A stretch of 35,100 bases of DNA from an uncultured Clostridia bacterium (GTDB taxonomy: Bacteria > Bacillota > Clostridia > Christensenellales > UBA1242): contig CALVML010000013.1 in NCBI GenBank assembly GCA_944345705.1, forward strand, positions 1 through 35,100, in the 5' to 3' direction. Shown here one piece after another: positions 155 through 14,499 of this stretch. The position numbers and the translations under genes were made by a program. Positions within the stretch are counted from its first letter, which is position 1. Each line of letters opens with the position of its first letter. A model generated the notes under the pieces. It was not told the origin of the DNA. It saw nothing but the letters and a program-made list of their open reading frames with translations, and did no database searches.

Positions 155-3100
155 TTAATTAACCATCAATTTGCTAGTTCTTTCAATAAACTTTGCAGGT
201 ATTTTGTTGTGCATTTTCCACACAATCGAAATGGGTCTTGATCCCTCATGTGAAACATAATCACAATAGCCTAAAATTGAATAATTTTCCGTATTTCCAT
301 ATTCAGTCATTCTATAATTTCTAACACACAATAATATATTATTATTAGTTTTTTTATGATTTATGTAGCGCTGCCCCGTCGGCGAATTTATATCAGTCTT
401 ATTTTGTGACTGCCAATGGAATAATTTATCGTTAATAGAATAATCTTCATATTTAACTTCAGGCGCATAATGTTTTTCAGATTTGTTTAATGTTACAAAA
501 AATATATCTGTTTTTTCATTTTCTATATACCACACACCTGATGTTAATGGGAAATATCTACTTTCTGTATATTCACCAAAACCAGCAAGAATTTGCGCAT
601 TAGAATAAGCAGAATACAATTCCAAAGGACAATTACTAAATTTTATCAATTGACTGTTAACTATATCTATTTTAGAAAAATTATAATTTAATAAATCTAT
701 GATTTCTTCATAATATGGAGAATTTACAATCTGTTCTATGCTTTCATTAACATTTTTACAACCTAAATCTTTCGGAGATTTTTGAGTTTCAAAAGTATAA
801 TGAAACATCAAAAGACAACGTTTATCATATTCTGTTAATTCAATATGTTTAGCATTTTTTATTTTTGGAAGTAAATCTAACAGTCGTTTTATCCACGCAG
901 AAGAATTTAATTGTGTGCATCGAGCTAAAAATGTTAAAAATTTTTCATTATCAATAACATTTGAATTTTGTAGCGAAGTGAAAGATAATCCTATATTATA
1001 TAATTTAGCTGGATTTATATTATAATACTCGAAAAAGTTTTTATAATTTAGGACGAGTCCACTGTCACTTTCAAAATTTTTAAATTTTTCAATAAAGTTT
1101 GCTTTATTATTGAACGATTGCTTAATATTATTTAATACATATTCTTGAGCTTTCTTTTCTAATGTTATAAAACAACCCTTTGGAAGATTTGGAAATCCAT
1201 TTTTTATTTCAGTAGAAACAGACATTGCATTAACACCTAGAAGAGCCTTATATTTATCAGCATATCTATACTTTTTATTAGCTTGTCCAACGTAATCTAA
1301 AACCGTTAAAGAATCTTTCCCTTCACAAAGTCTTAAACCTCTACCTAATTGTTGTAAAAATACGGTTAAACTATCTGTTGGTCTTAAAAATAAAACTGTA
1401 TTTACTTCTGGAATATCAATACCTTCATTATATAAATCCACAACAAATATAAACTTTATTTCGCCCTTTACTAATTTATCTTTAACATTTTCTCTTAATT
1501 CTTTTGAAGAATTACTATCAAGTTCGATAGATGGTATTCCAGCATCATTAAATACTTTTGCCATAAATTGAGCATGTTGTTGACTTACGCAAAACCCTAA
1601 TCCTTTTATTGTATCAATATCATTAAGATATTTATTTAATGATTTTAAAACCGTTATTGCTCTTGCTTTATTAAATGATAAAACATTGCTAAGTTCTTGT
1701 ATATCATATCCACCTCTAGTCCATTTTACAGAACTTAAATCTGTTTCGTCTGAAACTCCAAAATATGTAAAAGGTACAAGCAGATTTCTATCAATAGCTT
1801 CTGGGAGTCTAATTTCAGCAGATATTTTACCATCAAAATATTGTAAAATATCTTTTCCGTCCATTCTTTCTGGTGTTGCAGTAAGTCCGAGTAAAATTTT
1901 TGGTTTAAAATGTGATAATAACTTTTGATATCCTTCTGCTGCCGCGTGATGAAATTCATCAACAATAATATAATCATAAAAATCAGGTGCTAATTTTTCA
2001 TATAACTTTTTAGTATTAAATGTTTGAATTGATACAAATAAATTATCAATACTTTTGGGTAAAATTCCACCAACCATTAATTCTCCAAAATTATTATCTC
2101 TTAAAATCCCTCTGAAACATTTTAAGCTTTGTTTTAAAATTTCTTCTCTATGAGCTACAAATAAAAATTTGATTTTTCTTCCATGTTGTGATTGTAGATA
2201 ACGTTTAAAATCAAATGCAGACATAACCGTTTTGCCTGTTCCTGTAGCTGCAACAACTAAATTTCTATAATTGCCACGATTTTCTCTTTCAACCCTAAGT
2301 TTTTCCAGAACTCTTTCTTGATAAGGATATGGAGTAATATCAAAATTGTATTCTTCTAAATTAAATAATTTTGGATGCTTTTCTTGATATAAATTGTTTC
2401 TTAATTTTTCATTATCTTCTTTATTATATTTTTCAAATTCTTCACTGTTCCAATATACTTCAAATGTTCCACATATTTTATCAAAAACGTCTTTCATCTC
2501 TTTTTCGGTAACTTTAACATTCCATTCGGTCCCGCTTGTAAGAGCTGCACTTGAAATATTAGAAGAACCAACATAAGCGGTAGAAAAACCAGTTTTTCTT
2601 TTAAATATATAGCTTTTAGCATGTAGTCGCGTTTGTTTTGTATTATATGATATTTTTATCTCAGTATTGTTTAGTTCGCATAATCGTTCAATGGCTTTTG
2701 CTTCAGTTGCTCCAGTATAAGTCGTTGTTATAATTCTTAATTTTCCACCATTATCAGTAAATTCTTTTAATTCATCTAAAAGCCTTACTATTCCACTCCA
2801 TTTAATAAATGAAACGATAAAATCTATTTCATCACAACTAGAAATTTCTTTTTTTAATTCACTAAGCAATTGAATTTCAGTGTTTGCACCAGTAAACACA
2901 AAAGGCTCTGCAATAGAATAGTTTGGTCTTATTGGATAATCCGTTTTTAATACTCTTATACTATTCTTTTTATTCATTAAAGAATATAACATTTCGGCAT
3001 CTTTCGAAATTAGTTGACTTGAATAGTATTCATCTTTAGTTTCATCTTTTATTTTATTAATAAGATAATTGCAAAAATTTAACTGTTCTTCTATTGTGTA

Positions 3101-3271
3101 ATTATTCTCAGATAAATCTTTTAAGCCTTTTTCTAAAACTTCAGACAAATAATGGGATAAGATTTTAGGCGCATTTTCTTTATCTATTTTTCTTTTTTCA
3201 ATTTGAATATCATTTTCATTAATATCATTTAAAGCTTTATTAATAATTTGCTCATAAAGTCCAAAATTCAT
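155..3271 (-). CDS. PLD-nuclease / SF2 helicase / DUF3427 protein
   Basis: This 1038-residue protein has three parts. Residues ~120-280 form a phospholipase-D-like nuclease domain with one HxK motif (H217, K219) and a downstream GSSN (~236-239). Residues ~315-680 form a superfamily 2 helicase core: Walker A GTGKT (344-348), DEFHH as motif II (438-442), TAT motif III (464-466), motif V near 612-623 and QQLGRGLRL motif VI (640-648). The C-terminal ~250 residues match DUF3427 (FHWQSQN, SHEGSRPISIVW). Such proteins resemble type III/I restriction helicases, with the PLD domain as the likely nuclease. Only one HKD half-site is present, so it would be expected to dimerise. The start has a strong GGAGGAG site, and the upstream NUDIX stop is 2 bases away, so translation is probably coupled. 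A role in defence against foreign DNA is inference; the domain calls are firm. Confidence 0.9.
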   Translation of the reverse strand: MNFGLYEQIINKALNDINENDIQIEKRKIDKENAPKILSHYLSEVLEKGLKDLSENNYTIEEQLNFCNYLINKIKDETKDEYYSSQLISKDAEMLYSLMNKKNSIRVLKTDYPIRPNYSIAEPFVFTGANTEIQLLSELKKEISSCDEIDFIVSFIKWSGIVRLLDELKEFTDNGGKLRIITTTYTGATEAKAIERLCELNNTEIKISYNTKQTRLHAKSYIFKRKTGFSTAYVGSSNISSAALTSGTEWNVKVTEKEMKDVFDKICGTFEVYWNSEEFEKYNKEDNEKLRNNLYQEKHPKLFNLEEYNFDITPYPYQERVLEKLRVERENRGNYRNLVVAATGTGKTVMSAFDFKRYLQSQHGRKIKFLFVAHREEILKQSLKCFRGILRDNNFGELMVGGILPKSIDNLFVSIQTFNTKKLYEKLAPDFYDYIIVDEFHHAAAEGYQKLLSHFKPKILLGLTATPERMDGKDILQYFDGKISAEIRLPEAIDRNLLVPFTYFGVSDETDLSSVKWTRGGYDIQELSNVLSFNKARAITVLKSLNKYLNDIDTIKGLGFCVSQQHAQFMAKVFNDAGIPSIELDSNSSKELRENVKDKLVKGEIKFIFVVDLYNEGIDIPEVNTVLFLRPTDSLTVFLQQLGRGLRLCEGKDSLTVLDYVGQANKKYRYADKYKALLGVNAMSVSTEIKNGFPNLPKGCFITLEKKAQEYVLNNIKQSFNNKANFIEKFKNFESDSGLVLNYKNFFEYYNINPAKLYNIGLSFTSLQNSNVIDNEKFLTFLARCTQLNSSAWIKRLLDLLPKIKNAKHIELTEYDKRCLLMFHYTFETQKSPKDLGCKNVNESIEQIVNSPYYEEIIDLLNYNFSKIDIVNSQLIKFSNCPLELYSAYSNAQILAGFGEYTESRYFPLTSGVWYIENEKTDIFFVTLNKSEKHYAPEVKYEDYSINDKLFHWQSQNKTDINSPTGQRYINHKKTNNNILLCVRNYRMTEYGNTENYSILGYCDYVSHEGSRPISIVWKMHNKIPAKFIERTSKLMVN

Positions 3272-3785: not shown

Positions 3786-4670
3786 TTATATTGCTATATT
3801 TTGAGTTCGGTATTTTACCGGACTCATTTTTAATTTAAGTATTATTCGTTCGTTATTGTAATAATATATATATTCTCTTAGTTTGTCAATGAAAGTGTTA
3901 ACACTTTCAAATTTTTCTCCATAAAACATTTCTATTTTAAGTCTTCCAGAAAAGTTTTCCATTATACTATTATCTAAACAATTCCCTTTTCTTGACATAC
4001 TTTGCTGTATATTATTCTCTTTTAATATTCTCTGATATTCTTTCATCTGATATTGCCAGCCTTGATCTGAGTGTAATGTTGGAGTAGCATTGCTTGGCAG
4101 TTTATGTATTAATTCTTCAAGCATTTCTCTAGTTTGATTAAAGTTTGGGCTGGTTGAAATTGAGTAAGATACAATTTCATTGTTATACATATCTAGAATT
4201 GGAGAAAGGTAAACTTTTTCATCACATACAGCAAATTCTGTTACATCTGTTGTTAACTTTTGAAGTGGAGCATTCGCTACAAAATTTCTATTAATTATAT
4301 TAGTAGCAATCTTTCCAACTTCGCCTTTGTAGGACCTGTATTTGCTTTTTCTTTGTTTACCTTGAATGTTTAGAGATTTCATTAGTTTTAGAACTGTTTT
4401 GTGATTGATTTTGTAACCTAAATTTCTTAATTCTATTAGAATTCTACGATAACCATATCTTGACTTATTCTCATTAAATATATTAAGGATTACTTGCTTT
4501 TCAATTGCATATTTGTCTTTTGATAGATTGGTTGTATGGTAGTAGAAAGTGCTTCTAGGGATATTGGCAAGAGTTAAAAGTTTATCTAGTTTGTATTTAT
4601 GCCTTAGTTCAGAAATGATGATTACTTTTTCTTTTGGTTTTGAAGCCTTTTCCGAACTAAGGCATCTAAT
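3786..4670 (-). CDS. IS150-type transposase OrfB (frameshift-expressed, DDE)
   Basis: This is the catalytic half of the transposase, with an rve integrase core. The triad is visible: D in TTDVTEF, D in HSDQGWQY, and E in MENFSGRLK, with exactly 35 residues between the second D and the E. The frame stays open upstream of the first ATG (4382), reading HKYKLDKLL, a SRYGYRRI motif and INHKTV, as in other OrfB proteins (HTH_21 region). No good independent start is seen. It is best explained as a continuation of OrfA after a -1 shift at the A AAA AAA heptamer (4670-4676), giving an OrfAB fusion of about 410 residues. The product cuts and joins the inverted repeats of this element. Confidence 0.85.
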   Translation of the reverse strand: MRCLSSEKASKPKEKVIIISELRHKYKLDKLLTLANIPRSTFYYHTTNLSKDKYAIEKQVILNIFNENKSRYGYRRILIELRNLGYKINHKTVLKLMKSLNIQGKQRKSKYRSYKGEVGKIATNIINRNFVANAPLQKLTTDVTEFAVCDEKVYLSPILDMYNNEIVSYSISTSPNFNQTREMLEELIHKLPSNATPTLHSDQGWQYQMKEYQRILKENNIQQSMSRKGNCLDNSIMENFSGRLKIEMFYGEKFESVNTFIDKLREYIYYYNNERIILKLKMSPVKYRTQNIAI

Positions 4671-5519: not shown

Positions 5520-5549
5520 AAAAAAATGAAGATTGATATTAATCTCCAT
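5520..5549 (-). terminator. Terminator at the end of the TOPRIM gene
   Basis: On the minus strand ATGGAGATT (5549-5541) pairs with AATCTTCAT (5534-5526), with one G-T pair, and is followed by a T-run (5525-5520). It overlaps the stop codon of the gene, so it was probably kept together with it. Confidence 0.7.
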
Positions 5550-6264
5550 TTACACAATCATTAACAAATAAATTTAAATTAGTCTCCCTTTTTAAAGCAT
5601 TCTCATTTTTCAAGATATTTATCCATGAATTACTAAAATCTAGTTGTGTCCCAACATCTTTATGATTTATAAATTTTATAAATTCTTCTGTATTATTAAG
5701 ATATTGAAAAGCAAATTTCATTGAATAATACTCTTTTTCAACATCTGTTTTAATGTTTGAGTTATCATGCAAAACATGTTCTAAATCGCATGACATATAA
5801 TACGCATTATATCGCTTACAAACATTTCCAAAAGATTTAAATGATATATTATTTAAGGTTGAAATGTATTTTAACAAATTCCTTTTATGAACATTTCTAT
5901 TAACAATAAAAGACTTGTTTTTTACATAAACCTTATCATTTAGATATTTTTCATCTGGACTTTCAATTATTCTATCTTCATCAATAGAACAAGCATCAGT
6001 ATCAACAATATGAACTATTAATTGTATATCATCTAATTCATAAAGGCCCTTTGAATTATTTAAAAATTCTTCAACTTTTTCTTCTATTTTCTTGGATACA
6101 TTTTTTATATTTGTTTTAAAATCAGATGTTATATCCCCATGAAATATAGCAAATTTCACTTTAGAATTTTCAACAATTTTAGACAAAACATCTTCTAAAG
6201 ACTCTTTATCAGAAGGCCCCTCAACTAAGATTAAAATTAATTTTTTAGCCGTTGTGTTCTTCAT
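5539..6264 (-). CDS. TOPRIM-like putative nuclease, partner of the ATPase
   Basis: A 241-residue protein. The N-terminal strand LILILVEGPSDKESLE carries the TOPRIM glutamate (E15), and IVHIVDTDACSIDED carries the DxD pair (D88, D90) after a predicted strand. That is the arrangement seen in OLD-family nucleases and DUF4435/AriB-like proteins. The rest is not recognised; a CDLEHVLHD stretch near residue ~170 may be functional. Start: ATG at 6262-6264 with AAAGAGG 7 bases upstream; the TTG at 6270 is too close to that site. It overlaps the end of the ATPase gene by 20 bases, so the two are made together. By analogy with PARIS and two-gene OLD systems it would be the toxic nuclease released or switched on by the ATPase. 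The TOPRIM call is moderate and the defence role is inferred. Confidence 0.65.
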   Translation of the reverse strand: MKNTTAKKLILILVEGPSDKESLEDVLSKIVENSKVKFAIFHGDITSDFKTNIKNVSKKIEEKVEEFLNNSKGLYELDDIQLIVHIVDTDACSIDEDRIIESPDEKYLNDKVYVKNKSFIVNRNVHKRNLLKYISTLNNISFKSFGNVCKRYNAYYMSCDLEHVLHDNSNIKTDVEKEYYSMKFAFQYLNNTEEFIKFINHKDVGTQLDFSNSWINILKNENALKRETNLNLFVNDCVNGD

Positions 6265-7642
6265 AAGCAATCCTCTTTAACACAACTTTTAGTCCGGTAA
6301 TATCATCTTCTGCATATAGGTTTTCTTTTTGTCCCCCTAAATCTAAAGCTCTTAAATAGAAAATTCTTAAATTATTATTTGTTTTTACATTTGTAAGTTT
6401 TACATATCTTTTTAATGGGTTAGCTGTGCTAAAATATATGCTTTTATAATCCAATACTTCCAATGGTCTCAAATTGTGCGACGAGAAAAAAAGTTGTCCT
6501 TTACCTAAAGATTTTAAAACTCCCAGCAACTTTCCAAATAAATATTCAAATATACCGGCATCCATCTCATCAATAGCAACAAATATATTATCAAATGAAC
6601 AATATGCAATTAGTGTCTGTATTATAGAAATTATCTTTAATATACCTGTAGATTCATTTCTCATCGGGATGCGTTTATTATTTCTAATTGTCACCAATTC
6701 TATGTCATATCCATTGGTGCCGTCATCTAAAACTGTTGCCATCTTTTCAATAACTATTTTAGTATCGGGAATGATTCTATTCATTACATCATTAATATTA
6801 TCAATGGAAGAACTTAAATTTTCATAAAACTCAGATGTCACTTTTTGTGGTTTATTTAAATTAAATGATTGGTTTCCGCTTATTATTTGTTCTATTATAA
6901 AATTTTCCTTTTTTGTTAACTTATGAAATCTAAACATAAAAGGCAGATTCCATTGCAAATTTATCATACCATACTGTTTGTTAGTAATAATAAACATATT
7001 CATACGAGCAAAATCCTGCAATGCGTCCAGTATTTTCCCTAAATATTTATCTTTTGATTTTTTTAATATTGCTTTTATTAATTCATTATTAAATAAATAT
7101 GAACTATCTCGTTGTTTACATATTTTTGAAGATACAACAAAATCATTATTTAATAATTTAAAATCTTCTTTAGATAATGATGAATCATACCTAGACCTTA
7201 AACTATACTGAATATAACCACTATTTGTAGTTGATGAATATCTTAATCTTTCCCTATTAATTATATACTTTTTTGCATTATTATCTCTTTCAAGTGATAT
7301 TAAATAATTCACTGTAAATACTTGCTTATTAAAATTATATATAAAAGTAGTATTAATTTCTGATTTATCTTCACTAACAGCTAAACAATCATAAAAACTA
7401 TTTTTCTTATCTTGATTATCTTTAAAAGAAAGTTCATCTGTCATGATAAATTTTAGAAAATCTAACGCATTAACAAAAGCTGTTTTACCAGTTCCATTTT
7501 GTCCATACATTGCTGTTATATTTTCTTCAGACAATCTTTTTTCGTCTTTAAAGAAATCAACTCTCCCTTTCCCAACATTTTTAATGTTTTTTAACTCTAC
7601 GCTTTTTATATTTAATGAAAGTTCCATTTTCTTTTTCCTCAT
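6245..7642 (-). CDS. ABC-type/OLD-like AAA ATPase (AAA_15/21 class)
   Basis: A 465-residue soluble SMC/ABC-like ATPase. It begins with the typical strand pair (VELKNIKNVGKGRVDFF), then Walker A GQNGTGKT (47-54), a signature-like NESTGILKI (329-337), Walker B FVAIDEMD (354-361) and an H-loop SSHN (387-390). The middle ~250 residues are helical and poorly conserved, as in defence ATPases of the AAA_15/AAA_21 families. AGGAGCG precedes the ATG at 7640-7642; M6 is a less likely start. It forms an operon with the TOPRIM-like gene, which overlaps its 3' end by 20 bases. This architecture matches two-component anti-phage modules such as PARIS (ATPase plus TOPRIM effector) and RloA/RloB-like pairs. 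I do not recognise the exact family. Confidence 0.85.
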   Translation of the reverse strand: MRKKKMELSLNIKSVELKNIKNVGKGRVDFFKDEKRLSEENITAMYGQNGTGKTAFVNALDFLKFIMTDELSFKDNQDKKNSFYDCLAVSEDKSEINTTFIYNFNKQVFTVNYLISLERDNNAKKYIINRERLRYSSTTNSGYIQYSLRSRYDSSLSKEDFKLLNNDFVVSSKICKQRDSSYLFNNELIKAILKKSKDKYLGKILDALQDFARMNMFIITNKQYGMINLQWNLPFMFRFHKLTKKENFIIEQIISGNQSFNLNKPQKVTSEFYENLSSSIDNINDVMNRIIPDTKIVIEKMATVLDDGTNGYDIELVTIRNNKRIPMRNESTGILKIISIIQTLIAYCSFDNIFVAIDEMDAGIFEYLFGKLLGVLKSLGKGQLFFSSHNLRPLEVLDYKSIYFSTANPLKRYVKLTNVKTNNNLRIFYLRALDLGGQKENLYAEDDITGLKVVLKRIAYEEHNG

Positions 7643-9476: not shown

Positions 9477-9980
9477 TTATACATACTCTTCTTTGGTGGA
9501 AAATTCTTGTAGACCAAGATGTTCTTTAGCAATGCGCAATGCCTCATTTACTTGACTTTCGCCAACCTCACCCCAATTAAGAAGCTCGATTGCTCGCTTA
9601 GGGGTTGTAAGAAGCCGATCGTATGTTTTACCCGTGTCTGGATCGGGTTGTCTTATTCCTATAGAGTCAATAATTGCGCTCATACGCATTTGAGCGTAAG
9701 GAGGCGAGCCATCTTCTTCATCAACTTGTTGATAACCTACGACAAGAGCCCCATCTTGTAAAGTTGTGTTTACCTCTTCTAAAAATTCTCTTTTCAATGT
9801 TTCTTCTCTGCTATTATCTTCTAGTTCAGGCTTTCCGCCAGCAAGTGAATACATTATTTTATCACCTACTTTTTCCACTTTTAAAAGCATTCTTCCATCT
9901 TTTGTAAATACAAGTCCATAGACCTGTGTAACCTTCATCCCTTCAGGTACATTACCGTTATGCCATGTAAAAATTGCCAT
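9477..9980 (-). CDS. NUDIX hydrolase
   Basis: A 167-residue Nudix protein. It has the box AGGKPELEDNSREETLKREF followed by LEEVNT; the first glutamate position is shifted by one residue compared with the strict pattern, and the REFLEE core is intact. The N-terminal KVTQVYGLVFTKDGRMLLKVEKVG is the usual first strand. AGGAG precedes the ATG. It is monocistronic, between the gene scar and the OapA-like gene. Base use is a little richer in GC than the defence genes to its left. Substrate unknown. Confidence 0.85.
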   Translation of the reverse strand: MAIFTWHNGNVPEGMKVTQVYGLVFTKDGRMLLKVEKVGDKIMYSLAGGKPELEDNSREETLKREFLEEVNTTLQDGALVVGYQQVDEEDGSPPYAQMRMSAIIDSIGIRQPDPDTGKTYDRLLTTPKRAIELLNWGEVGESQVNEALRIAKEHLGLQEFSTKEEYV

Positions 9981-10060
9981 AAGCTTTCTCCTAAAAATTT
10001 ATTGTGTTTTTATATTAAATTTCTATGGTGTAAATTTGATAATTATCTTTTTTCCACAAG

Positions 10061-10840
10061 TCAATTTTTTGTTTGGCTGGTATCATTTTTTGGTTCGGTT
10101 GAATGTATATTATTGTTTATTTCGTTTGAATAATCGTTGTCGTTTGTTTCGGTTGTGGCTGACGCTTCAATGTTTTCTTGCTCAAGATTTGAGGCAGGCA
10201 AAACAGCAGGTTCTTGCCCATCTTTTTCTTCAAAAGGCAAACTTGACTTAGGTTTGCCACTTTTCTTTTTTTGTGATTTATCTTTTTTGCTAAAATGAAA
10301 AATGCTCATAACCTTGCCCATGATTAAAACAATCTTATCGGCATGATTCATTGAATATCGTTTCATTAAAGCCTTGCCAGATATGAGAAGGGCTGCAATG
10401 ACAGCAGAAACAAGTGAAGCAATCACAATTCCTAAAAAATTTGACATGCTTTGAGTGATGAGTGCAGTTGTAACTGCAGCACCTGCCGCACCAGATAGAA
10501 TACTGCAAATATCACCGAGGATATCTGCGAATATGCTCGACACCCTATCGGCGTTCTTTTGCAATATAATTGCTTCCTTTGCTCCGCGGACCTTTCTAGA
10601 AGCCATAGCACGAAAATTTTTCTCGTCACAGGCAGTGATGGCAACTCCTATCATGTCTGTGATGATTGCGATAAATAAAAATACTACAATGACAACAATA
10701 GAGATAGCAATTCCTGCTCCCGAGAGCGCGATTTCACTTAATACGCCAAATGCCATAGAAAGAGTAAAGGATAGCACCAATACAATGAGTGGCCACCTAA
10801 AATATTTTTTAAATTTTGATTGTTTCTTTTTATTTTCCAT
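10061..10840 (-). CDS. oapA: OapA-like (CorB/DUF21-like) membrane protein next to OLE RNA
   Basis: A 259-residue integral membrane protein. Hydrophobic segments lie at ~15-37, ~41-62, ~110-130 and ~134-156. Between the second and third is the conserved loop IGVAITACDEKNFRAMASRK, then VRGAKEAI, NADRVSSIF and DILGDICSI. A basic and then acidic, low-complexity cytoplasmic tail fills residues ~180-259. From memory this loop pattern belongs to clostridial proteins annotated as CorB-like and to OapA, the membrane partner of OLE RNA. The large RNA gene directly upstream on the same strand supports this. ATG 10838-10840 is preferred because the hydrophobic core then follows a short basic N-terminus; an ATG at 10862 is possible. 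No good ribosome site is visible, and a TATAAT (10855-10850) close to the start suggests a very short leader. Confidence 0.6.
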   Translation of the reverse strand: MENKKKQSKFKKYFRWPLIVLVLSFTLSMAFGVLSEIALSGAGIAISIVVIVVFLFIAIITDMIGVAITACDEKNFRAMASRKVRGAKEAIILQKNADRVSSIFADILGDICSILSGAAGAAVTTALITQSMSNFLGIVIASLVSAVIAALLISGKALMKRYSMNHADKIVLIMGKVMSIFHFSKKDKSQKKKSGKPKSSLPFEEKDGQEPAVLPASNLEQENIEASATTETNDNDYSNEINNNIHSTEPKNDTSQTKN

Positions 10841-11007
10841 TTTAATTCTATTATATAATAACATGTTTCTTTATAGAAATCAAATTAAAAATAAAATGAT
10901 GGCAAAAAATGATAATAAAAAAATAAAATTTTAAAAATCTAAAAAGTTTAAAGTCATATTAAAATATTTAAATAAGTTTAATATATTTTACGCATAATAA
11001 ATATTAT

Positions 11008-11038
11008 AAAAAAAATAGAGCCTATAGGCTAGGCTCTA
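11008..11038 (-). terminator. Terminator of the large structured RNA
   Basis: TAGAGCCTA (11038-11030) pairs with TAGGCTCTA (11024-11016) around a 5-base loop and is followed by a run of eight T on the minus strand. Confidence 0.9.
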
Positions 11039-11588
11039 GGAAGACGACAAAGTCAGTAAACCTTGTGTCATAGGTTCGGTCGGATTTCCCAGCCACGCGC
11101 TCAATGTCACCATTTAAGCAGTTTCCTTTTAAGCATGACATAACACCGAATCGCCACTCAGAACACACTATAATCCTGTCTTTGCCTGCTAAGGCAACAG
11201 TCTAGAGATTTTCTCTGACACAGCCATCAGTAATTCACTTGTTTTGCAAGTGCAGTTTCACGAGCAGATATTCAACGTGCCCGTCGACAGTAGTTGAATA
11301 TGTTGGATACCCGATTCCCGTACACTCACTCAAAGTAGGCTACACTGCACACGACTTTTACCGCAATGCAGGTTCTTCTCTCAGGGAGTGCTTTCACACC
11401 CGACTGAGTCTCCGCGAAAATTGGGACGACTTCTGTATGCCGTTACAGCTCGCCCAAAAATCTTAACTTCCAGCACACGCCCCAGTTTGGGCAACCAAAG
11501 CCTGCACCAGAAACTTCATCGATATGCCCTTTGACGCTATTACTTCGCCGTCCTTAAAGCTGGCTATGACTAGAATACTGCATCTTCC
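11008..11588 (-). ncRNA. Large structured RNA, probably OLE RNA
   Basis: About 580 nt with clearly higher GC than its surroundings and no credible reading frame. A consensus promoter predicts the 5' end at about 11588 (GGAAGA). That end pairs with UCUUCC at 11044-11039, just before the terminator. Two further helices nest inside: GUCAUAG (11570-11564) with CUAUGAC (11073-11067), and CCAGC (11563-11559) with GCUGG (11093-11089). Local hairpins include 11236-11252 and a 9-bp stem 11268-11276/11293-11301. RNase P, tmRNA and intron hallmarks are absent. Size, isolation and the OapA-like gene immediately downstream point to OLE RNA, a membrane-bound RNA linked to alcohol, cold and Mg2+ stress in Firmicutes. 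The large structured RNA itself is well supported; the OLE name rests on context and is less sure. Confidence 0.7.
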
Positions 11589-11594
11589 ATATAT

Positions 11595-11623
11595 ATTATA
11601 CAATGAATTTGCTAAAAATGCAA
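11595..11623 (-). promoter_or_regulatory. Promoter of the large RNA
   Basis: TTGCAT (11623-11618), a 17-base spacer and TATAAT (11600-11595). The predicted start coincides with the first base that pairs with the RNA's 3' end. Confidence 0.85.
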
Positions 11624-11630
11624 CTGCTCT

Positions 11631-11668
11631 AAAAAAACTTGACTTTTGCTTTAGTCAAGTTTTTGTTT
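11631..11668. terminator. Terminator between the hypothetical gene and the RNA gene
   Basis: AAAAACTTGACT (11633-11644) pairs with AGTCAAGTTTTT (11653-11664), with A/T runs on both sides. It separates the 11691-12113 gene from the RNA promoter. Confidence 0.85.
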
Positions 11669-11690
11669 TTTACTAAAAAATTTTTTTCGC

Positions 11691-12113
11691 TTATATATTG
11701 CGTTCTGTTTGAATTGGCTCTTTATCAGTTTTCGCGGTTTTCTCTTTTGTTTCATTCATAACTAAATCTTCATTATCTAAAGATGCTAAATATATATCTT
11801 TCATATTCAATATTTCATTTTTTGCTACTTTCTTTTCAGCATAATTTGCTAGTTTATTTACATTGTGGTATACCCAGCCTTGTGGAGAAACCCAGTTAAT
11901 TTCATTTAAGCCGTTGATTCTCGCGTAATTTTTTTTGCAAAAAATTGTACCATAAGTAAGCACTTTCGAGTAAGCCTTGCTGTCGCACACAATGGTACAT
12001 CTGCCAACTATAAATCCCTTTTCGACTGGTAATTTTCGGTCATTTTTTAAATATTTCAATAGTTTATCAAGTGGAAATTCTCTTTTTGATGAAAATACAA
12101 TCATTTGACTCAT
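11691..12113 (-). CDS. Hypothetical protein, 140 residues
   Basis: I do not recognise this protein. It begins MSQMIVFSSKREFPLDKLLKYL, continues with a mixed strand/helix domain that is rich in aromatic residues and cysteine (GRCTIVCDSKAY, GTIFCKKNYARI, NWVSPQGWVYHNVN), and ends in a charged tail (KEKTAKTDKEPIQ). No signal peptide or membrane span. AAGGAG lies well placed before the ATG. It is the gene upstream of the large RNA on the same strand but is separated from it by a terminator and a promoter, so it is probably not part of that transcript. Confidence 0.7.
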   Translation of the reverse strand: MSQMIVFSSKREFPLDKLLKYLKNDRKLPVEKGFIVGRCTIVCDSKAYSKVLTYGTIFCKKNYARINGLNEINWVSPQGWVYHNVNKLANYAEKKVAKNEILNMKDIYLASLDNEDLVMNETKEKTAKTDKEPIQTERNI

Positions 12114-12285
12114 GGCAAACTCCTTATATAAAAATAATAAAATATTTTATTATCCATGTCAATAGCAATATTCAATAAAAATGTATTTTTTGCAACAGAT
12201 TTAGATTATTTGTATCAGGTGCGTGCTGATTTAATATTAGGTTGCATTTATTAACAAAAATAAATATAATTTTTATCTTTTTTGC

Positions 12286-12316
12286 TTGACAATTCCCCCC
12301 CCCGCCAAGTTATAAT
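12286..12316 (+). promoter_or_regulatory. Promoter with a C9 tract in its spacer
   Basis: TTGACA (12286-12291) and TATAAT (12311-12316) are both perfect but 19 bases apart. The spacer holds nine consecutive C (12295-12303). Loss of two C by slippage would give the optimal 17-base spacing. It drives the GDPD-like gene, leaving a leader of about 75 bases. Confidence 0.7.
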
Positions 12317-12396
12317 TGCACTGAGGGGGATAGAGCGTTTTATTTTGTCTAAAAATATGCGGAATTATTTCACATGGCAAAGCTCAAAATATATCT

Positions 12397-13335
12397 ATGA
12401 AAAAATTTTATATTATACTTTCACTTATAATTATTTTTATCGCAATTGAGATTATAAAATATTTTGTAAACTTTGTTGCCTTCTATTTCTTGTTTGCTTT
12501 TCAGATGGCAATTGCTATTGCTTGCATTGTTTTGCTTTGTCTTAAACCTAAACATAAAATCATCTTGTCAACAAGTTTTGTTCTTTCTTTGATATTTTTA
12601 ATTATGCCCATTTTGATAGGACTTGCGCGCATTGAGCCATTGCCCGTAACATTTAACTATGTCATCCATGCAGGTGGTGGCATGGACGGCACACCATATC
12701 TTAATAGTCAAGAAGGATTTTTGCAAAATGTTCAAAACAGTCAAAAATATATTGAAGTGGACTTTCTCTATACAAGCGATGATAAGATAGTCGCCTCGCA
12801 CCTATTTGAACATAATGATGGATTTAATTTGAAAAATCGACCAACTTATGATGAGTTTACGTCCTATAAACTTGAAGGAAAATATACTGGCATGACTTAT
12901 GAGTGGCTGTTAGATCAACTGGAAATATTTGAAGATGTCAATATAATATTTGATACTAAAGAAAGTGATTCGCTCTCGCTTTTACAAGATATGGTACAGA
13001 TTGCGACCGCAAGAAATTTTGATATATACTCAAGATTTATTATTCAAGTTTACAGCCTAGAAAATTACCATGACATGAAAGAGCACTTTGACTTTGATAG
13101 ATATTGGTATACAAACTATAAGACAGAATACTCTCCTATGGAAATTAAGAAAAATTTTGCTGACTATGATGATATTGATACCATTGTGCTTTGGACTTCT
13201 GATTGGTGGGTTGTCAATCAAACAGGCATTGATTTAGGCAAGGATATCGCTGTGCATACCGTGCATTCTCAGTCGGCAGTCAATTTTTTAGCAACACATG
13301 GAGTTGACTATATTTATGTTGACCAGTTAAAATAA
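12397..13335 (+). CDS. GDPD-like phosphodiesterase, membrane-anchored
   Basis: 312 residues. Three hydrophobic segments (~4-21, 23-48, 55-77) anchor a domain of the glycerophosphodiester phosphodiesterase/PLC-like TIM-barrel superfamily. Catalytic and metal residues are in place: H91 (HAGGGMDG, with Ala instead of the usual Arg), E120 and D122 (IEVDF), and H135 (VASH); the 29- and 15-residue gaps match the family. The domain would face outside and cleave a glycerophosphodiester such as deacylated phospholipid or teichoic-acid units. NIIFDTKE and VDYIYVD are barrel strands. The ATG at 12397 lacks a clear ribosome site, so expression may be low. The promoter contains a C9 tract that could make it phase-variable. 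A terminator follows at once. Confidence 0.75.
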   Translation: MKKFYIILSLIIIFIAIEIIKYFVNFVAFYFLFAFQMAIAIACIVLLCLKPKHKIILSTSFVLSLIFLIMPILIGLARIEPLPVTFNYVIHAGGGMDGTPYLNSQEGFLQNVQNSQKYIEVDFLYTSDDKIVASHLFEHNDGFNLKNRPTYDEFTSYKLEGKYTGMTYEWLLDQLEIFEDVNIIFDTKESDSLSLLQDMVQIATARNFDIYSRFIIQVYSLENYHDMKEHFDFDRYWYTNYKTEYSPMEIKKNFADYDDIDTIVLWTSDWWVVNQTGIDLGKDIAVHTVHSQSAVNFLATHGVDYIYVDQLK

Positions 13336-13770: not shown

Positions 13771-13799
13771 TTGTCAAAATGCAATGTCTATGCTATAAT
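13771..13799 (+). promoter_or_regulatory. mscL promoter
   Basis: TTGTCA (13771-13776), a 17-base spacer and TATAAT (13794-13799). The start lies about 100 bases upstream of the mscL start codon. Confidence 0.75.
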
Positions 13800-13899
13800 C
13801 TTTTTAGTACAAGAAATTTATTTGCAAATGATTTTTATTTTTGATTTCAAGGATAAGAATTATAAAAACCAAACAAATATTGTAAGCAAAGGAGAAAAG

Positions 13900-14499
13900 A
13901 TGAAAAAAATTAAACAATTTTTTATTGACTTTAAAAAGTTTATATCTCGTGGCAACGTCCTTGACCTTGCGGTTGCTCTCGTTGTAGGAACAGCCTTTAC
14001 TAAGATTGTATCTTCGCTTGTCAATGATTTAATCATGCCACTTATCTGCGCTATATTTGGAACGGCAACCGTCGACCAACTTTACTTTACTTTAAATGGC
14101 GCTCAAGTTTTCTATGGAAGATTTTTGCAAGCAGTAATTGATTTCCTACTTGTTGCTATAGTGCTATTCATTATTTTAAGAATAGTTATGAATGCAAGCA
14201 ATGCAGTTAGACGTTCAATTAGCGAAAAGCCTACAAAAGCAGAAAAGAAAATCTTGCAAGAGCAAGGCGTTAACATGAAAGATCATAAGGCTGTAATTAC
14301 AGCAACAAAAGAACTTCGCGAGAAAAACAAGGTTGTAGAAGAAGTAAAGCCTACCACTGAAGAACTTTTAAGCCAAATACTTCTAGAACTCAAAAAACAA
14401 AATGAGAGTATAGAAACAAAACAAGCCGAAGAACGCAAAGATGAAAATTTTAACAATAGTGTAATTGAAAAAACATCTTCTACTGAAGATAAAGATTAA
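13900..14499 (+). CDS. mscL: Large-conductance mechanosensitive channel MscL
   Basis: 199 residues. The N-terminal amphipathic helix (KQFFIDFKKFISRGNVLDLA) and TM1 with AVALVVGTAFTKIVSSLVND are diagnostic for MscL; TM2 lies at ~75-97. It forms a pentameric pore that opens when the membrane is stretched and releases solutes on osmotic downshift. It is longer than the usual ~130-150 residues: about 50 charged residues separate TM2 from the C-terminal bundle helix (TTEELLSQILLELKKQNE), and a ~25-residue acidic tail follows. The start at 13900 has GGAG 7 bases upstream; the longer frame from 13771 would begin inside the promoter. A hairpin terminator follows. Confidence 0.95.
   Translation: MKKIKQFFIDFKKFISRGNVLDLAVALVVGTAFTKIVSSLVNDLIMPLICAIFGTATVDQLYFTLNGAQVFYGRFLQAVIDFLLVAIVLFIILRIVMNASNAVRRSISEKPTKAEKKILQEQGVNMKDHKAVITATKELREKNKVVEEVKPTTEELLSQILLELKKQNESIETKQAEERKDENFNNSVIEKTSSTEDKD

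Follow-up and report, generated by a model that had tools for sequence, protein, structure and literature searches.

OLE RNA, first reported in 2006 and still of open biochemical function (PMC9723947, PMC11332333), is described in other species as a dimer (PMC12286853) that is held at the membrane by the protein OapA (PMC12265935) and affects Mg2+ and Mn2+ balance and growth under several stresses (PMC10898510). OapB and OapC are usual but not universal partners of OLE, and a DxxxD motif separates OapA from the CNNM proteins, which lack it (PMC11332333). The residues of this motif are mutated in the harmful PM1 form of Halalkalibacterium halodurans OapA, and the DxxxD mutant is worse off than a deletion of ole and oapA (PMC9723947), which fits a core activity that is harmful when damaged. 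A cytoplasmic cluster of positive residues in OapA has been suspected of RNA binding (PMC12265935). The RNA and the protein are reported as almost completely mutually inclusive, such that they might never appear independently (PMC11332333), with oapA present only in ole-containing organisms (PMC9723947). Short OLE variants occur in the uncultured gut clades TANB77 and RF39, and variant 1, from TANB77, combines shorter stems, a loss near the OapB site and a reduced gut genome in which OapB and OapC are mostly missing. These variants were set aside in the main profiling of that study, which also remarks that transfer or assembly error may lie behind the OLE hits in distant phyla (PMC11332333).

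We analyzed a window of 35,100 nucleotides, meaning the whole stretch of DNA considered here, from an uncultured Clostridia bacterium whose genome bin (1.28 Mb, 37 contigs) contains one OLE RNA. With good confidence the locus can be read as an ole-oapA unit with its own promoter, an OLE RNA of about 570 nt and then the partner gene oapA, which would work by the mechanism proposed below. It resembles the OLE/OapA systems of H. halodurans and Clostridium types in its full-length model match, its own promoter, the position of oapA directly downstream, the DxxxD motif and the CNNM-like fold of the protein. The features of the RNA and its promoter are as follows.

11618-11623, minus strand: TTGCAT, the -35-like box of the ole promoter, spaced 17 bases from the -10 box
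11595-11600, minus strand: -10 box TATAAT, placed from the sequence and the comparison of loci
11025-11602, minus strand: OLE RNA as matched by Rfam RF01071; the probable transcript runs from about 11588 to 11016
11582-11588, minus strand: 5' arm of the closing helix
11268-11301, minus strand: hairpin at the P9.3 position, with self-complementary GUCGAC near its tip (11283-11288), a candidate dimer contact
11039-11045, minus strand: 3' arm of the closing helix, pairing with 11588-11582
11016-11038, minus strand: intrinsic terminator, nine pairs followed by T8, directly after the closing helix

The identity of the RNA, which the original prediction had proposed from size and gene neighborhood, is established by a match to RF01071 in an Rfam scan of the window (358.9 bits against a gathering cut-off of 50, E 4e-102) that covers the entire model, positions 1-616, in 578 nt and is not truncated. 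Only two Rfam matches in the window are above the cut-off, a tRNA and OLE, and a permissive scan of 9500-12500 found no competing family at the island; ROOL, GOLLD and HEARO, which had been named as alternatives for this strand, have no match there and are not supported, OLE being the one family to reach its cut-off at the island. The conserved OLE blocks are present in the alignment. The P7 region is shortened, and the segment before the P13 region has one base in place of 19 model positions (the labels P7, P9.3 and P13 were assigned to this RNA from comparison with the papers and the Rfam alignment). The fold of 11015-11590 is better than those of 98 of 100 shuffled sequences (z -3.2).

The predicted promoter, TTGCAT-17-TATAAT, would start transcription near 11588, as had been claimed. 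Its -35 box agrees with the sigma-70 consensus at only three of six bases, which is why it is absent from the list of the promoter scan; the exact box pair and spacing nevertheless recur before OLE at 10 of 16 genus or near-genus loci, that of the window included, and TTGNNN-17-TATAAT is found at 15 of the 16, though the loci differ. The terminator stands where it was expected.

Three nested helices had been predicted to close the RNA, and only the outermost holds up. It is found at the same place in relatives with other letters on both sides (GAAGGC/GCCTTC, GGTGGT/ACCACC and GGATGGC/GCCATCC), and the longest helix averages 7.5, against 6.1 when the partners are shuffled (at most 6.5 in any of 200 shuffles), based on the 62 of 90 OLEs that could be parsed, 28 being dropped. 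The second and third are not supported, as the OLE covariance model pairs bases of the 3' arm of the GUCAUAG-CUAUGAC helix elsewhere. That helix is present in the minimum-energy fold, but the family consensus there is not complementary, as judged by reading the alignment. The GUCGAC of the P9.3 hairpin was assigned by eye, the script having picked another loop; relatives mostly have GGCC or GCGC at this tip, and the loop is palindromic in 38 of 50 scored sequences, a weak test of a kissing loop given that 40 of the 90 sequences fell under the stem threshold.

The gene immediately downstream on the same strand encodes OapA1, an alternative upstream ATG being possible at 10864.

10061-10840, minus strand: oapA1, 259 aa, four long helices, CNNM-like; relatives support the start at 10840
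10577-10606, minus strand: MASRKVRGAK, the basic turn at residues 79-88, set between the second and third long helices, kept with OLE and mostly lost from OLE-free OapA
10511-10525, minus strand: DILGD, the DxxxD motif (D106 and D110), invariant in the groups compared
10064-10285, minus strand: C-terminal tail, polar, lysine-rich then acidic, of low model confidence and not conserved

The earlier assignment of this neighbor as an OapA is borne out by synteny, by the DxxxD motif and by the predicted CNNM-like fold. By motif, D106 and D110 were equated to D100 and D104 of the H. halodurans protein (PMC9723947). In the predicted structure, four long helices are accompanied by two short ones, a turn lies between long helices 2 and 3, and the tail has low confidence; OapA2, a second OapA described below, is predicted with the same helix pattern. 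The top five PDB matches of the OapA1 model are all transmembrane domains of archaeal CorB or bacterial CorC (probability 0.99-1.00, E 0.004 to 0.3, TM-score 0.37-0.41 over the query), as in the CNNM-type Mg2+ exporters MpfA, CorB and CorC. Both OapA1 and OapA2 match the CNNM family PF01595 weakly, under its cut-off of 28.4 bits, OapA1 at 22.4 bits (E 1e-4). Unlike the MpfA/CorC exporters, OapA1 has neither the CBS pair nor a CorC_HlyC domain and does have DxxxD; no CorC_HlyC (MpfA-type) match was found in the host genome. One of the loci with the nearest OapA1 is from Candidatus Onthoplasma faecigallinarum (OapA 78%), whose genome has a single OapA hit.

The charged tail that had been put forward as a possible RNA contact is real, at about 75 residues, but it is not conserved. 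In 14 of 20 aligned OLE-linked OapAs this region amounts to just a few residues, and the six long tails all belong to the host genus; because of this, and because a phosphodiesterase domain stands at this position in two relatives, the tail was ruled out as a general RNA contact.

Several features set the locus apart from the H. halodurans and Clostridium systems. A Pfam search of the host genome found no L7Ae-type OapC, and a search for KOW domains recognized no OapB, its two hits lying in frames 258 and 248 aa long, neither of OapB size; the latter is a weak test, as a short OapB may be missed. The RNA is shortened in the P7 region and next to P13, and the unit is present in some species of the genus only, at scattered loci. 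With no L7Ae-type OapC, no recognized OapB and a shortened segment near P13, this is therefore a pared-down version of the system. By features alone (reduced genome, shorter stems, loss near the OapB site, OapB and OapC mostly missing) it is like variant 1 of TANB77; a second OLE-free OapA, OLE-free OapA clades and exchange of the unit are not described in the excerpts of that report. Neither the existence of OLE and OapA nor that of OLE in gut clades is new, and the occurrence of OLE outside extremophiles, to which the original prediction had drawn attention, had already been published for TANB77 and RF39 (PMC11332333).

A search of 61 genomes with an OapA profile (the host and 60 relatives) found an OapA-like protein in all 37 genomes of the genus and OLE in 10 of these, and the OLE-positive genomes carry two OapAs. 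Across the whole genus, OLE is present in 29 of 112 genomes. A hit was called OapA1-type if its E value with a profile made from OLE-linked OapAs was 1e-62 or lower, the best of the remaining hits standing at 3e-56. Such a hit is found in exactly those 29 and in none of the other 83, and in some of the 29 oapA1 is on a different contig from OLE. OapA2-type hits are found in 108 of the 112, with a fragment in one more (G015), and the three genomes without any OapA hit are 73-88% complete. The OapA2 gene is located at L110 (G000:C1:51793-57311), and also at L111-L127 and L130-L148. No OLE adjoins OapA2 at the 43 genus loci examined, of which L136 and L140 begin at a contig end. In 18 OapA2 loci laid out, the gene follows xseA/xseB or proS in 16 and precedes infC in all 18. 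Seven loci in other families and genera of the order hold ole-oapA at the xseA site. As the xseA site holds the pair elsewhere in the order, and OapA2 usually stands at or near it, ole appears to have been lost from its ancestral site in the genus, with oapA staying behind. Over all the loci compared, 20 neighboring proteins from six loci were named by NCBIfam; names at other loci (nusB, rpmI, tlyA and the same genes elsewhere) were assigned by reading. OLE-positive genomes in other genera of the family (G233, G249, G258, G283 and G300) have one OapA each.

OapAs without OLE also occur elsewhere in the order. In a sample of 247 order genomes, requested at 90% completeness or above, 109 have both OLE and OapA, two have OLE only, 33 have OapA only and 103 have neither; the 33 become 32 on removal of G302 (L189), whose OLE is cut by a contig end. 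The linkage is not absolute in the other direction either, as the two OLE-only genomes (G099 and G169) have no OapA hit and in G049 the OLE (L153) and the OapA (L152) are on different contigs, kilobases from the contig ends. Seventeen of the 32 form one family, f6, in which all 17 OapA-positive genomes are without OLE. The order xseA-xseB-ispA-oapA-dxs is found at the 16 f6 loci laid out (L128 is the seventeenth), where the gap between ispA and oapA measures 34-50 bp at 11 and stays below about 300 bp at the remaining five, three of these with an unsure start codon. In two f25 genomes and one f8 genome oapA follows ispA with no OLE, and in g27, within the family of the host, an OLE-free oapA precedes argR-recN. 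As the two are described in print as almost completely mutually inclusive (PMC11332333), these OLE-free OapAs are notable exceptions. On an OapA tree of 102 rows, hand-chosen from 175 (a first tree had 142 rows), four changes of the OLE label are counted, of which starred branches force at least three. The tree counts changes and not their direction; most simply they would be losses, since OLE stands at the xseA site across the order.

Could these proteins be served by a diverged OLE-like RNA that our searches failed to recognize? A diverged relative can escape a covariance model, and stricter filters were applied in the large genome searches. The f6 loci, however, have no room for an RNA of about 570 nt between ispA and oapA, and the OLE status of the genus genomes matches an independent protein search exactly. 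Permissive cmscan runs on sets of 12, 12 and 12 loci gave no OLE other than one cut by a contig end. Permissive Rfam scans found none in the 15 of 17 f6 loci covered, and at 12 OapA2 loci they found beside OapA2 only a sub-threshold L20 leader just downstream, in 12 of 12. The conserved basic turn is also mostly gone from the OapA2 and f6 proteins, and on this evidence we regard such a hidden RNA as quite improbable.

A replacement of OLE by MpfA was considered within the genus, where eight of the 27 OLE-negative genomes have CorC_HlyC and the 10 OLE-positive ones have none (Fisher p 0.08); as all eight sit in one clade of the genus tree, the replacement is not shown. Among 24 other families of the order, represented by one genome each, all eight that lack OLE have CorC_HlyC, as do four of the 16 that carry it (p 0.001), in line with the published anticorrelation with OLE.

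The sites of the unit within the genus differ: it lies directly after tilS in G010, directly after groEL in G016, about 6 kb from ribosomal-protein genes in G006 and beside a NUDIX gene in the window. Mantel tests covered 325 pairs from 26 OLE-positive genomes, the other three of the 29 having been dropped with no usable OLE stretch, with InfC, RplT and an RlmB-like methyltransferase as the housekeeping set. Housekeeping divergence correlates with that of OapA2 (rho 0.83, p 0.0005) and not with that of OapA1 (rho 0.10, p 0.16) or OLE (rho 0.07, p 0.22), whereas OapA1 and OLE follow each other (rho 0.74, p 0.0005); an initial comparison of ten genomes agrees. The most deviant pairs share 78-86% identity in OapA1 and 59-63% in the housekeeping proteins, and between the window and G006 the values are 81% for OapA1, 60% for the housekeeping proteins and 40% for OapA2. 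Starred clades conflict between the two trees compared, and the housekeeping data reject joining G000, G022 and G006 (AU p 8e-7, for a group chosen after seeing the trees). The simplest reading of these sequence comparisons is horizontal exchange of the whole ole-oapA1 unit, which suggests that the pair passes between species while the RNA-free OapA copy stays. No mobile-element ends were noticed in passing at the unit.

An OLE ribonucleoprotein inherited vertically in a reduced gut genome and lost many times, with OapA2 as an old paralogue and no horizontal movement, would explain a part of these data. OapA2 and g27 are sister to the OLE-linked OapAs of the family (95/82), as would be expected from an old duplication, the presence of OLE changes several times on the genus tree under either account, and the weak correlation between OapA1 and OapA2 (rho 0.24, p 0.03) indicates some vertical signal in OapA1. 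This account is nonetheless unlikely, as it does not fit the contrast in how OapA2 and the unit track housekeeping divergence, the excess identity of OapA1 in the deviant pairs, the different loci of the unit in different species, or the single OapA in each of the five OLE-positive genomes from other genera. Contamination of metagenome bins, which could produce both a patchy ole-oapA1 and conflicting trees, appears more improbable still. The genus members checked by title are indeed metagenome bins, with estimated contamination of up to 6%, but in G016 a single 225-kb contig carries both OapA2 and the OLE unit, the latter immediately preceded by groEL, and of the 72 bins with completeness of 90% or more and contamination of 5% or less, 23 have OLE.

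In G010 a gene of 335 aa (L151:5392-6396), with no Pfam match better than 0.08, stands between OLE and oapA1, and in G327 OLE and oapA1 are about 2 kb apart. The near-identical G022 (L161; OLE 98%) matches the window in the unit and in the NUDIX gene after it, and differs upstream of the OLE start (11589-11640 of the window), where its contig has about 53 bases.

Returning to horizontal exchange and resident OLE-free OapAs, the latter allow a comparison of what the protein keeps when the RNA is absent. Rows were compared from 108 OLE-linked OapAs, 42 OapA2s and 17 f6 OapAs. The 108 include six with no adjoining OLE, two near a contig end (L031 and L047) and four with OLE on another contig (L149, L150, L152 and L155). 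Three rows were excluded: L065 and L097, which have no adjoining OLE, and L189, whose OLE is truncated. Profile columns D65, D109, G112, D113, G120, K158 and K162 are invariant in all three groups, and DxxxD is present in every row, the DxxGD core thus being retained in OLE-free OapAs. The turn columns P78, F79, M82, A83, K86, G89, A90 and K91 are not invariant across the groups; M82 is found in 107 of 108 OLE-linked rows, compared to 1 of 42 OapA2 and 1 of 17 f6 rows. Outside the turn, OLE-consensus residues are retained at 0.76 in OapA2 and 0.74 in f6, and within it at 0.27 and 0.21 (Mann-Whitney p 7e-4 and 3e-4, for 8 against 46 columns, with neither columns nor rows independent). Net charge across the turn region averages 3.7 with OLE, 1.0 in OapA2 and 2.8 in f6. 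There are departures from this pattern: G89 is kept in 95% of OapA2 rows, E39 outside the turn is replaced by Q in both large OLE-free groups, the f8 row and both f25 rows keep the turn charge (one of the two f25 rows also keeping the methionine), and the unlinked L065 and L097 keep the turn methionine. Part of the loss may be general drift, since OapA2 diverges faster. The basic turn is thus a candidate OLE contact, and the OLE-free lineages provide evidence that is independent of the positive cluster suspected in PMC12265935 and point to a narrower site.

Putting these observations together, we tentatively propose that OapA works without the RNA, as a subunit of a CNNM-type metal transporter whose DxxGD core would function with or without it, and that OLE may be a detachable, exchangeable and membrane-tethered regulator docking on the turn M-A-x-[RK]-K-x-x-G-A-K, located between the second and third long helices; this would explain why the turn is kept mainly where OLE is. 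The lineage would have lost ole at the ancestral xseA-xseB site while keeping oapA, now OapA2, and ole-oapA1 units would later have been acquired and exchanged horizontally as one piece, so that the host has both OapAs. The vertically inherited OapA2 might then do the basic job and ole-oapA1 be an RNA-controlled upgrade, with the fusion described next linking the system to nucleotide chemistry. OapA lineages without OLE, namely those of f6 and of the OLE-negative genus species, separate the role of the protein from that of the RNA and draw attention to a short segment of OapA as the site of RNA contact, and genus species with and without the unit, together with the fusion, offer testable leads on what the RNA adds. 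Searches of open-licence PMC papers, without supplements, and the excerpts consulted gave no report of OLE-free OapA lineages, a resident OLE-free paralogue, exchange of the unit or a phosphodiesterase fusion, beyond the remark on OLE hits in distant phyla (PMC11332333).

In two genomes, OapA1 carries a C-terminal type I phosphodiesterase/nucleotide pyrophosphatase domain (PF01663).

L151:6678-8468 (G010): OapA1-PF01663 fusion, 597 aa, E 1e-20
L038:2462-4312: OapA1-PF01663 fusion, 617 aa, E 3e-18

The two fusion proteins are sister sequences on the OapA tree. By analogy, the fused domain would sit where the cytosolic domains of MpfA sit, and if this is true the fusion would tie the OLE-OapA complex to phosphodiester or nucleotide chemistry.

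The remainder of the window holds other genes of note. At 5539-7642, a gene for an AAA_21 ATPase (PF13304) overlaps a 243-aa gene with no Pfam match, possibly as a defense pair; nearby are a helicase bearing DUF3427 and a PLD-like domain, at 155-3271, and an rve transposase, at 3786-4382. The gene at 13771-14499, on the other strand and about 2 kb beyond the OLE promoter, encodes the mechanosensitive channel MscL (PF01741).
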